From contig DZAZ01000011.1 of assembly GCA_022729755.1 (NCBI GenBank), forward strand, positions 1 to 36,491: a stretch of 36,491 bases of DNA, read 5' to 3'. This document shows, piece after piece, positions 4,404 through 9,021 of the stretch; the stretch's first letter is position 1, and every line of letters begins with the position of its first letter. Origin of the DNA: Helicobacter cetorum (GTDB lineage Bacteria > Campylobacterota > Campylobacteria > Campylobacterales > BB28). The notes beneath the pieces were generated by a model that ran no database searches, had not been told where the DNA came from, and worked only from the letters and a program-made list of their open reading frames with translations. A program made the translations under genes and the position numbers.

Positions 4404-5831
4404 ATGTTTTTAAATGATGAGTACACACTTAGTATTGATGATTTAGGGTATGCAAAACAAGCAAGTGTCATAAGAAATTTGATAATAAATGCTGATACTC
4501 CATTTTCTGTTGGTGTTTCTGGTCGTTGGGGAAGTGGTAAAACATCAATGATGAAATATTTAATGGCTTCGCTTGGTGGTAAGCCTTTAAAACATCGGCT
4601 TAATTTTCATACTAAAATGATTGAAGAAAAAAATATTTTTAAAGATGTAACAGATGATTTTGATAAAAAAGAGTTTGAAAATATAGAGACTATTTGGTTT
4701 AATCCTTGGGAGTATGAAAATCATAATGAACCGATAGTTGGGCTTTTACAGGAAATACATAATCACTTTTCTTTTTTAACTCAAAGTTTTAGAGAATCAA
4801 AAAAACTTCTCTCTGTTGCATTTGAAAGTGCTTTAAATTCTATTGGTTCATTTTTTTCACTTGCTGAAAATCAAGCAAATAAACTTAAAGTTATTGGAGA
4901 AAATTATGAGTATGATAATTTTAGTTATTTAGATAGAAATCAAAAATTTAAATTTATATTTCAAGAAGCATTAGAAACTTTACTTTTAAAAGATGAAACA
5001 AGAAGTGAGCCTGAAGATAGTGCTAGAATAGTTATTTTTATTGATGACCTTGATAGATGTGAAGATGAAACCATCGCAAAACTACTAAAAGAGATAAAGC
5101 AGTATTTATCAACTAAAAGATGTGTTTTTGTATTTGGATATGATAGACACCATATTGAAAAATCACTCTCAAAAAGTGCAACCAAAACAAATAAAGAGAC
5201 AAGAGCATATTTAGAAAAGCTATTTCAAACTACATTTTATATCAAAGAGCCAAGTGAAAAGAAATTAAAAACTTTTGTAAAAGATATTTTGAAACAATAT
5301 GAACTTAACAATAGAGATGATTTAACAAATTTTATTATCTCAATAATTGACCCAAATCCAAGAAGACTTAAAAGCTTTTTAGTCACTTTTTACTTTCATA
5401 TTAAAAATTCCAGTTTTAGCGAAAATGAAAATATAAAAATAGATGATTTAAAAAAATTAGCTTTAATTACATATTTAAAGCTTTTTTATGAAAGTGTGTA
5501 CTCTGTACTTGAAAATCAAAATAATGTTTTAAAAAATATATTAACTATTTTTAAACATAAAGATAAATTTAAAACAACACATCCAACTGAATATTTTATC
5601 TATCTTGAATTTATAAACTATATTCATTCTACTGAAATATTATCTTTTAATGATGAAGAGTTAAAAAAAGAGATAATAAAAAATGATAAAAATTTGGAAG
5701 AAAAATTTTTAAATGAAGTTTATGAAATGCAAGGCAAATATAGGAGTTTTGAAAATTTTACAAATGAGTTTCAAAAACATTTTGAAAATTTTGTATCTAA
5801 CAATACTAAAAAAATCAGCAAATATCTCTAA
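4404..5831 (+). CDS. KAP-family P-loop NTPase
   Basis: A 475-residue protein with the hallmarks of KAP ATPases: Walker A GRWGSGKTS at residues 40-48, the family motif with FNPWEYEN about 60 residues later, and a Walker B of the form IVIFIDDLDRC near residues 208-219, followed by a KxIKQYL helix and a VFGYDR sensor-like segment. Many KAP proteins have membrane helices inserted between Walker A and B; none is evident here, so it is probably cytosolic. The C-terminal half is lysine-rich and helical with no recognised domain. It sits 2 bp after the adenylate cyclase and 10 bp before the NACHT gene. KAP ATPases occur in several phage-defence and mobile contexts, but a defence role here is inference. 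Confidence 0.88.
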   Translation: MFLNDEYTLSIDDLGYAKQASVIRNLIINADTPFSVGVSGRWGSGKTSMMKYLMASLGGKPLKHRLNFHTKMIEEKNIFKDVTDDFDKKEFENIETIWFNPWEYENHNEPIVGLLQEIHNHFSFLTQSFRESKKLLSVAFESALNSIGSFFSLAENQANKLKVIGENYEYDNFSYLDRNQKFKFIFQEALETLLLKDETRSEPEDSARIVIFIDDLDRCEDETIAKLLKEIKQYLSTKRCVFVFGYDRHHIEKSLSKSATKTNKETRAYLEKLFQTTFYIKEPSEKKLKTFVKDILKQYELNNRDDLTNFIISIIDPNPRRLKSFLVTFYFHIKNSSFSENENIKIDDLKKLALITYLKLFYESVYSVLENQNNVLKNILTIFKHKDKFKTTHPTEYFIYLEFINYIHSTEILSFNDEELKKEIIKNDKNLEEKFLNEVYEMQGKYRSFENFTNEFQKHFENFVSNNTKKISKYL

Positions 5832-5841
5832 AGGATAAAGT

Positions 5842-8625
5842 GTGCAAATAGAAGCCCCTTTTTATGAAGAAAAAGAGTTTTATAATTTAAAAATAAAATA
5901 TCAAAGTAAATTAAACAAACTATTTAATAATGAAGATGCCCTAAAAGTTTTGGAAAGTAGTGAGGATATACCAGTATCACTAAAAGATATATATGTGCCA
6001 TTGAGAGTTGATAAAAAAGAGTTAAGTGTTATTGAAAATAGCCAAGATGTAGAAGAGATAGAAGGTAAAAGTATAGATACAGTTATCAAAGAATATCAAT
6101 TTATCATATTTTCAGGATTGGCTGGAAGTGGAAAATCTACTTTGACAAAATATCTATCTCAAGCACTATCTGAAACTATAATAAATAAAGATATACAAAA
6201 TTTAGGACGAAAATTAGTTTTACCATTTATATTAAGAGAGTTAGACTTTTCAAAAATAGATAGTTTAAATGATTTATGGAAAGCTTGGATAAAAGATTTT
6301 TCTAAAAGATTGGATATAGAACTAAATAGAGAATTTTTTGAATACTATATCTCTAAAGGGTGGGCAATAGTTATATTTGATGGTTTTGATGAACTTGGCG
6401 AAGAAAAAAATAGACAATTAATAAAATGGCTAACAGCTTGGGCAAATAATCTCAAAAATGAAAATATAAAGACAAATATAATTTTAACATCAAGACCTAC
6501 AGGTATATTAAAAGATACAAATTATGATACGTTTGAACTTTTTCATATTCAACCATTTAATCAAAACGAAATAAAAGAGTTTGTAGAGAAGTTTTTTGCG
6601 ATTAGATATAGTTATGACAAAATATTGAAACAGCAAAAAATAGAGAGTTTTTTAGATAAATTAGAAAATTTTAAAGGTTTAATAGAGTTAAAACATAGAC
6701 CCATCTATCTTGCAATGCTTGGATATATATCCGAAGTTGATGGAGAGATACCAAATAGCAGGGCATTAGCTTATAAAAAAATGGTAGAAGCTTATGTACA
6801 TCAACTAGATTTACAAAAAAACTTAGACCATAAAAAAGGACATTATCAACTTCCAACTTGGAATAGAAGTGATAGGATAGAATTTTTAGAAGAGTTTGCT
6901 TATAAAGTTCACACTTTAGCAAGTCAAAATGGTGCAAAAGAGTCAAAACAACTACAAATTCAAATCTCAAGAGAGCAACTTATAGCACTTTTCAAAGAGA
7001 TATTAGACAATACAGAATTTACAACTATTTCAAAAGAGACAAATGTAAAAGATTTAGAGAAATACTTTTTAGCAAGAACAGGACTTTTGATAGAACCAAA
7101 AGAGGGATTTATACAATTTTCTCATTTATCATTTCAAGAGTTTTTGGTAGCTAAAAGAATACATAGAAAACAGCCAAAACGAAGAGTAGAAGATTATTTA
7201 AAAAAAGAGATTTTTGATAAGCTTTATAGTGTCGGTTGGGCAGAAATTGCACAACTATACTTTGGAATTGATACATTAGAACAAGGTGAAGGACAATCAG
7301 AAATACTACATTTTCTAATAGATGAAAACAACAACTCACATATAGAATTTTTCTATAACTTGATTTTTATAACAGATAATAAATTAAATGATGAAGATAA
7401 AACAAGATGGCTTAAAACTTTACTTTTTCTGATTATAAATAATCAACATAGTTATAATTTTAGAGATTTAATAATCAAGTTTGAAGATAATCTAAAAAAG
7501 CTAAATATAGATTTAACAGAGTATTTAATAAATATTGCAGATGATATTTTAAAAAAACGACCTATAAATCAAGATGAGTTGATTCAAGTTATGGAAAAAA
7601 ATGATAACGATTTAGCTTTTAGGTTAAAAAATTCAAATGCTGATTATTTCAAACAGTTAGAAAATATCCTCCACATTGGATTTTATTTTGAAAACTTTCA
7701 AAAAAATTATTTAACAAAAGAGAGCTTGAAGTTTTTTCCTCAAAATGAGAGAGATAAAAATTTTATTTTTATACTTGATAAATATATTCCTTATAATAAA
7801 AACTTAAAAGAAGAGATTGCAGATATAGTTGTAAGCAATATTTCACCTTATCTATTTATTGAATTAAATGGAAGTTACTATTTAACTTTATCGTCTCTAT
7901 TTACAACAGATAATTTTTATAGAGAATTATTAAAAATTCAGCTTACAGTAAATAACAAGTCACTTTTTATAATAAAAAAAGATATGTTAAGTAGTAATGT
8001 TAAAACTATGGCTAGGGATATGGCTAGGAATAGGGATATGGCTAGGGATATGGCTAGGGACATGGCTAGGGATATGGCTAGGAATATGGATATGGATATG
8101 GATATAGATATGGTTATGGATATAGATATGGTTATAGATATGAATATGGTTATGGTTATGGATATGGATATGGATATGAATATGAATATGGTTATGAATA
8201 TAGTTATGGATATGGATATGGATATAAGTATGGCTATAAGTATTATGTGGGATAATAAAGCAAAAAAAGAAGATATAATCAATTTAAGCTTAAAAGCTTG
8301 GTTATTTTCGCTTTATGCCTCTTCTAAAAGATATGCTGAAAAAGTAGATATTAATATAAATATTTCAAAACAAGAATTTATAAATTTATACAATCAACTT
8401 GAAACTAATCCAATTGAGTATTTTGAAAACAAAGGTTTTAAACTTACACAACAACAAAAAGATGAGATAAAAGAGCTTTTTGAAAAAAGTTATCTTTTAA
8501 AAACTATGGAGTATATTATTAATGAGAGTGAGTATGAGGAGTTTGATGAAAACAAAGCAATAGAGGATTTTCATAAAGCAATTAAAGAGTTTAATGAAAA
8601 GTATAAAGATGGTGTTAAGCAATAA
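5842..8625 (+). CDS. NACHT-domain (STAND) ATPase with an internal tandem-repeat segment
   Basis: A 927-residue protein starting at a GTG preceded by AAGGAT. A short N-terminal region ending in the typical pre-NACHT phrase LKDIYVPLRV leads to Walker A (GLAGSGKST, about residues 93-101), Walker B with the NACHT signature (VIFDGFDEL, about 177-185) and a sensor strand ending in TSRP (about 213-220). A helical part follows, including the FxHLSFQEFLVA phrase typical after NACHT (about 425-436). Residues 723-801 are a near-perfect repeat, first of M-A-R-D units and then two-residue units beginning with M or I. The remaining 125 residues are helical and charged. No classical effector domain (TIR, nuclease, protease, membrane pore) is recognisable at either end. 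NACHT proteins of this shape include antiphage sensors; here that is inference. Isoleucine codon use is strongly ATA, unlike core genes in the window. Confidence 0.9.
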   Translation: MQIEAPFYEEKEFYNLKIKYQSKLNKLFNNEDALKVLESSEDIPVSLKDIYVPLRVDKKELSVIENSQDVEEIEGKSIDTVIKEYQFIIFSGLAGSGKSTLTKYLSQALSETIINKDIQNLGRKLVLPFILRELDFSKIDSLNDLWKAWIKDFSKRLDIELNREFFEYYISKGWAIVIFDGFDELGEEKNRQLIKWLTAWANNLKNENIKTNIILTSRPTGILKDTNYDTFELFHIQPFNQNEIKEFVEKFFAIRYSYDKILKQQKIESFLDKLENFKGLIELKHRPIYLAMLGYISEVDGEIPNSRALAYKKMVEAYVHQLDLQKNLDHKKGHYQLPTWNRSDRIEFLEEFAYKVHTLASQNGAKESKQLQIQISREQLIALFKEILDNTEFTTISKETNVKDLEKYFLARTGLLIEPKEGFIQFSHLSFQEFLVAKRIHRKQPKRRVEDYLKKEIFDKLYSVGWAEIAQLYFGIDTLEQGEGQSEILHFLIDENNNSHIEFFYNLIFITDNKLNDEDKTRWLKTLLFLIINNQHSYNFRDLIIKFEDNLKKLNIDLTEYLINIADDILKKRPINQDELIQVMEKNDNDLAFRLKNSNADYFKQLENILHIGFYFENFQKNYLTKESLKFFPQNERDKNFIFILDKYIPYNKNLKEEIADIVVSNISPYLFIELNGSYYLTLSSLFTTDNFYRELLKIQLTVNNKSLFIIKKDMLSSNVKTMARDMARNRDMARDMARDMARDMARNMDMDMDIDMVMDIDMVIDMNMVMVMDMDMDMNMNMVMNIVMDMDMDISMAISIMWDNKAKKEDIINLSLKAWLFSLYASSKRYAEKVDININISKQEFINLYNQLETNPIEYFENKGFKLTQQQKDEIKELFEKSYLLKTMEYIINESEYEEFDENKAIEDFHKAIKEFNEKYKDGVKQ
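8008..8247 (+). repeat. In-frame 12-nt and 6-nt tandem repeat inside the NACHT gene
   Basis: ATGGCTAGG occurs at 8008, 8020, 8038, 8050, 8062 and 8074, that is every 12 nt with one 18-nt step, giving M-A-R-D/N units. From 8086 to about 8247 the pattern becomes a degenerate 6-nt unit (ATG or ATA followed by GAT, GTT, AAT, AGT or GCT), giving alternating M/I with D, V, N, S or A. Every step is a multiple of 6 nt, so copy-number change would keep the frame. It lies wholly within codons 723-801 of the NACHT gene. Confidence 0.95.
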
Positions 8626-8640: not shown

Positions 8641-8724
8641 TGAAAAAAGTTATATTTTTCAATCCTCGTCCCACTCTTCAATATAAAATAAAAACTTTTC
8701 TCTTTGATTTTTATTTAAAATAGA
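8641..8724 (+). other. Orphan start with ribosome site after the NACHT gene; possible gene remnant
   Basis: Fifteen bases after the NACHT stop, AAAGG precedes an ATG that opens MKKVIFF and continues for 27 codons to a TAG at 8722-8724. From about 8659 onward the frame is simply the antisense of the Spy-like gene's 3' end, so only about seven codons look like a native gene start. It may be the remains of a third gene of the KAP-NACHT operon, cut off where accessory DNA joins the older chromosome, or it may be chance. I do not propose a functional peptide. Confidence 0.3.
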
Positions 8725-9021
8725 GTGAATTTTTATTAATAACTCCAATTTTATTTGATTAAACTCTTTTGCTAAATTTAAATCAATTTCATTTAAAAAC
8801 TCTAAATTTAAATCATCTTTTAAAAACTCTTGTTGTTTTTTAATTAAAGAATCTCTCTTTTTTTGTCTAAACTTTTTCATTTGATGTTTATATGATTTTA
8901 ATAGTTTTTTTATACTCTCATATTGAATTTGATTTAAATTTAAATTAGTTAAATCCTTTGGAATAGAATGGTCAGCCAAAAGATTTAAAGTTAATAAAAT
9001 TATTAATATGAATTTTACCAT
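8659..9021 (-). CDS. Spy/CpxP-like small periplasmic protein
   Basis: A 120-residue protein with a signal peptide (hydrophobic 4-15, likely cleavage after LLA near residue 16). The rest is charged and helical, with two LTxxQ-like motifs (LNLNQIQ near residue 29 and LNKNQREKF near 102), as in the Spy/CpxP/LTXXQ family of periplasmic chaperone or metal-stress proteins. Family identity rests on pattern and length, not on a strong signature. Its start overlaps the end of the cytochrome b gene by 7 bp, so it is the last gene of the SHP cytochrome operon. It may protect or sense folding of the exported cytochromes; that is inference. Confidence 0.65.
   Translation of the reverse strand: MVKFILIILLTLNLLADHSIPKDLTNLNLNQIQYESIKKLLKSYKHQMKKFRQKKRDSLIKKQQEFLKDDLNLEFLNEIDLNLAKEFNQIKLELLIKIHSILNKNQREKFLFYIEEWDED

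Follow-up and report, generated by a model that had tools for sequence, protein, structure and literature searches.

How bacterial immune receptors without adaptive machinery match changing invaders is the wider question addressed by this study. Among fungal NLRs, the repeats of het-d and het-e are of the WD40 type. These highly alike tandem repeats (PMC12222747) share with the locus described here the concept of repeat turnover in an NLR sensor, but they consist of whole protein-repeat units, whereas the array described here is built of 6-bp units. In bacteria, bNACHT proteins such as bNACHT25 join a NACHT STAND ATPase core to a sensor-side region at the C-terminus (PMC12169576). C-type-lectin-fold domains in NACHT proteins are targets of diversity-generating retroelements (DGRs), in which diversity arises as a template is reverse-transcribed with errors (PMC10907252). 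NACHT receptors, their sensors and diversification by DGRs are already known; the new part, judged by the open-access literature, in which no description of hexanucleotide or dipeptide arrays in NACHT proteins was found, is the hexanucleotide arrays in NACHT receptors.

The NACHT protein studied here has the core and the C-terminal sensor-side region of bNACHT proteins; unlike them, it has a dipeptide array encoded by hexanucleotides as its sensor-side region, searches for LRR and NCH domains found neither, and a separate KAP gene lies alongside. A fast-changing C-terminal sensor segment, as proposed below, would also liken it to the DGR-diversified NACHT/C-type-lectin sensors, but the array is a tandem repeat for which no template was found (PMC10907252). 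The gene comes second in a KAP-ATPase/NACHT pair in the window (the whole stretch of 36,491 nucleotides that was analysed), which is part of a 2.1-Mb draft assembly of 132 contigs that is 88% complete. The features of the pair are as follows.

4404..5831, forward strand: gene for a KAP-family P-loop ATPase that ends 10 bp before the NACHT gene (Pfam PF07693, 117.8 bits)
5842..8625, forward strand: gene for the NACHT STAND ATPase with the array, 927 aa, GTG start (Pfam PF05729, 45.2 bits, cut-off 26.7, E 1.2e-11; Foldseek matches NLRC4, NLRP3 and NOD2)
6103..6600, forward strand: NACHT domain, residues 88-253, with Walker A GLAGSGKST and Walker B FDGFDE
7300..8007, forward strand: upstream flank, residues ~487-722, of which 606-703 are conserved in the Sulfurovum orthologue, to ~20 codons before the array
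8008..8241, forward strand: hexanucleotide array of 39 in-phase units, consensus ATGGAT, residues 723-800 of the 927-aa NACHT protein
8008..8085, forward strand: array sub-block 1, 13 units, mostly ATGGCT with AGGGAT or AGGAAT (MARD/MARN)
8086..8241, forward strand: array sub-block 2, 26 units of ATG or ATA with GAT, GTT, AAT, AGT or GCT (M/I alternating with D/V/N/S/A)
8248..8622, forward strand: C-terminal flank, residues 803-927, modelled as helical and homologous to the sequence after the array in the Sulfurovum orthologue, not NCH2

Codons 723-802 of the forward-strand ORF 5842-8625 read MARDMARNRDMARD...MDMDMDISMAISIM. The first-pass annotation had described 80 codons in a strict 6-nt rhythm; this holds for the 39 units at 8008-8241, while the final two codons (ATT ATG) are off-rhythm. 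Each unit joins ATG, AGG or ATA to GAT, GCT, GTT, AAT, AGT or, once, GAC. The six copies of ATGGCTAGG reported earlier were all counted in the array, and the later alternation of M/I with D, V, N, S and A is seen after unit 13. Tandem Repeats Finder placed a repeat at 8007-8225 (period 12, 18.2 copies, 83% matches, 0% indels). Identity within the array was 0.72, 0.82 and 0.76 at lags of 6, 12 and 18, respectively, and did not exceed 0.31 at any other lag up to 17. Across the NACHT gene, lag-6 identity over 240 bp peaked at 0.73, compared with a mean of 0.405 and a maximum of 0.479 in codon shuffles (n=2000). The coordinates, the reading frame and the in-frame nature of the repeat were thus borne out by the ORF reading, Tandem Repeats Finder and the comparison with shuffles. 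An assembly error, which the first-pass annotation had raised against itself, is unlikely, given that the reading frame is uninterrupted, that the same hexamers occur at this site in an independent assembly from Sulfurovum, and that analogous arrays are found on complete cyanobacterial plasmids. The window array is real. No second such array was found in the 2.1-Mb assembly. A second NACHT gene in this assembly (G000:C100:10777-11232, locus L075) has no array. The reverse-strand ORF 7938-8282 (114 aa), which overlaps the array, shows no sign of being a gene. A 27-bp tandem repeat (2.1 copies, 8772-8830) was reported by Tandem Repeats Finder inside the reverse-strand ORF 8659-9021.

The Pfam PF05729 score above the cut-off agrees with the earlier assignment of the protein to the NACHT STAND ATPases. 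Its AlphaFold model, built with 23 homologues, is good in the ATPase core and poor from ~residue 620 onward. Foldseek matched the model to NLRC4, NLRP3 and NOD2 (E 4e-11 to 1e-9, ~550 columns, modest TM-scores), and an NLR-like NBD-HD1-WHD-HD2 core fold is predicted on these matches. Because the model resembles these three proteins, the array is placed on the sensor side, C-terminal to the predicted NLR-like core. The first-pass annotation had located it in the sensor half, and this fits both the model and the nearest KAP-NACHT relatives, which have leucine-rich repeats (LRRs) there. Its suggestion of a beta ladder was not upheld by the structure prediction that it called for: the array was modelled as a helix of low confidence (pLDDT about 33-52) between helical flanks, and AlphaFold likewise draws a low-confidence helix for the array of an independent cyanobacterial protein (L127). 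Pfam found no LRRs in the window NACHT protein, so that it lacks the combination of NACHT and LRR expected of a bacterial NLR. A PDB sequence search gave no match. An NCH2 identity of the C-terminal tail was considered and rejected, as there was no Pfam NCH2 (PF22727) match and the hhalign probability was 0.1%.

Between 517 and 8625 of the window, genes for a response regulator, a histidine kinase, a response regulator, a HAMP + nucleotide cyclase protein, the KAP ATPase and the NACHT protein follow one another on the same strand, never more than 26 bp apart, and hence may constitute one operon. The window nucleotide cyclase matches PADLOC models of PycC, the Pycsar cyclase. No nucleotide cyclase was found beside the KAP-NACHT pair of the Sulfurovum locus (L081). 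The KAP gene precedes the NACHT gene there as well as in L083 (Isosphaeraceae, Planctomycetota) and L116 (Chitinophagales, Bacteroidota), with tblastn identities of 40, 29 and 27%, respectively.

In the Sulfurovum assembly, the KAP and NACHT homologues stand in the same order and are about 40-41% identical to those of the window. The NACHT gene carries an array of ATGGAT, ATGGCT and AGGGAT units at the same site as the window array. Between the two species the array length differs (39 units in the window and about 47 in L081, the latter approximate because that assembly is rich in indels and frameshifts and could be read in pieces only), and so does the order of units. The flanks were matched on both sides, upstream with 53.5 bits and downstream with 28.1 bits versus at most 20.0 in 100 tail shuffles. 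This is the outcome anticipated by the first-pass annotation, which had proposed comparing conserved flanks with a varying repeat. The KAP-NACHT pairs of L083 and L116 end in LRRs where the window protein and L081 have the array, which indicates that the array sits where those relatives keep a classical NLR sensor. In the NACHT tree both group with the window protein as its nearest relatives outside Campylobacterota (support 84); this grouping is tentative because the branch of the window protein is long. The LRR units within the C-termini of L116 and L083 are highly alike.

The best plasmid sequence matches of the window protein are cyanobacterial NACHT proteins. In several of these, a dipeptide array follows a conserved 'YKPAAIRAFY'-like motif and precedes a C-terminal NCH2 domain, and such arrays are present on complete plasmids; the cyanobacterial NACHT proteins with D/L/A/R arrays that the first-pass annotation had mentioned were found among them. 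Like the window protein, these NACHT-NCH2 proteins (Pfam PF22727; D/L/A/R, L/S/R, L/N/Y and A/T/F/K arrays) have an in-frame 6-bp array that encodes alternating residues and separates the NACHT/helical core from a helical domain at the C-terminus, but they belong to another NACHT lineage, have an N-terminal HTH in some cases and an NCH2 tail that the window protein lacks, and use other unit alphabets. The alphabets also differ among the cyanobacterial arrays, namely L/R with D/A, L/R with S/T/D, L with N/Y, and A/T with F/K/N. In L110 (Thiotrichaceae) and in L122 and L145 (Leptolyngbya types; Leptolyngbyaceae), the array is inside an FGE-sulfatase-like domain, before a final 'WEGIRIVRE'-like motif. 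In other NACHT proteins this place is taken by C-type-lectin domains diversified by DGRs (PMC10907252). The NACHT genes with arrays therefore have C-termini of three different kinds, and in every array the two-residue alternation is strict, with fillings that include MD/RD, LD/RV, LN/LY, LS/RS and FA/IT. A search of 339 cyanobacterial genomes for eight CKYGMY units, a pattern that was modelled on arrays first met in NACHT genes, covers one alphabet only and holds nothing NACHT-specific, gave 7 places. Six of them are NACHT genes in which the array precedes the domain at the C-terminus, and the seventh is a pure CGTGAT repeat outside NACHT genes.

Arrays were gained or lost repeatedly among NACHT genes. 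Mapped on a tree of 43 NACHT cores, their presence requires ten changes, with at least 5 forced by strong branches, and its clustering was not beyond chance. In the sister pair L264 (with an array) and L147 (without), identity is 56% in the stretches on either side, compared with 22% in the array stretch. Within arrays, entropy was higher at second than at third codon positions in 13 of 15 cases (Wilcoxon p = 6e-4, with units within one array not independent), and this direction recurs across alphabets; codon bias may partly account for the low third-position variation. In the 45 units of the L110 array, positions 1, 3, 4 and 6 are invariant and only the two second codon positions vary, yielding the dipeptides LD (19), RV (19), RD (7) and LV (0).

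A whole-protein search of 397 Campylobacterota genomes gave no orthologue of the window protein (two weak short matches), and no array was seen in 20 longer regions of other Campylobacterota NACHT genes, including one with masked sequence and some cut off by a contig edge. Protein and unit-pattern searches of IMG/VR found no relative and no array, tblastn of the array alone against plasmids gave no match with the low-complexity filter on, and, in a comparison of strains, the multi-strain NACHT plasmids examined (Tolypothrix/Fremyella) have no array. Other ATGGNT repeats in Campylobacterota (L177, L180, L181 and L182) are short and lie in a different context, at or near exopolysaccharide Wzz/BY-kinase-type genes.

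We propose, with about an even chance of being right, that the array is a fast-evolving, in-frame variable part of the C-terminal sensor region of an NLR-like NACHT receptor that works with the KAP ATPase. Because each unit is 6 bp long and in frame, unit gain or loss leaves the frame unbroken; together with point changes, it could remake the ~80-residue stretch. Selection would keep the alternating two-residue pattern and favour amino-acid change, and the array would alter what the receptor recognises, or how readily it fires, leaving the ATPase core and the helices at the C-terminus unchanged. Slippage is the putative process of change, recognition the putative role of the array, and defence presumably the purpose of the KAP-NACHT pair. 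However, the multi-unit block duplications expected from slippage were above chance in only 2 of 11 arrays, which counts against slippage. The main rival is that a loop following the HD2-like region tolerates inserts and carries a slippage-born hexamer array as a neutral, flexible linker with no part in recognition. Low model confidence across the array fits a disordered linker equally well, many homologues have no array, and no fixed array sequence is shared between lineages. Yet the same hexamers are kept in the Sulfurovum orthologue though the flanks have diverged to about 41% identity, variation falls at second and not third codon positions, and arrays of this kind recur among NACHT genes that differ at the C-terminus but are rare outside them. 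The neutral linker is weakened by the retained hexamers and by the recurrence in one protein class, and we consider it unlikely.

A fixed structural module, in which the alternating pattern builds a defined element, helical or beta, to fix the spacing or packing of the receptor, with variation only incidental, would explain why the alternation is strict in every array and why the window and L127 models draw helices between helical flanks. It is rather improbable, since the very different residues at the two positions are hard to fit into one packed fold, the array is modelled with low confidence, and L147 replaces the array region of its sister altogether. DGRs are reported to target NACHT proteins that have C-type-lectin sensors (PMC10907252), and the arrays of L110, L122 and L145 inside an FGE-like domain would suit a DGR variable region. 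That the window array is such a region is nevertheless extremely improbable: no second array copy that could serve as template exists in the genome assembly (88% complete), no reverse transcriptase was found among the 15 window ORFs scanned, and few-state changes at fixed positions (in L110, T/G and A/T only) are not the free substitution at template adenines of a DGR.

In sum, the variable sensor segment proposed for the window protein may have parallels: similar runs in the corresponding region of unrelated bacterial receptors suggest a simple way to reshape a sensor quickly. It is possible, though somewhat doubtful, that at least three lineages of bacterial NLR-like receptors convergently came to use hexanucleotide arrays, kept in frame, as a hypervariable segment for recognition. 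Such a source of diversity would differ both from DGRs and from large-repeat recombination, with selection favouring second-codon-position changes. Should the arrays turn out to be linkers, it would still call for an explanation that they recur at a single site in one class of proteins and that change is concentrated at second codon positions. If sensor arrays do alter by unit gain, loss and substitution, they would be a cheap generator of receptor diversity in several phyla.
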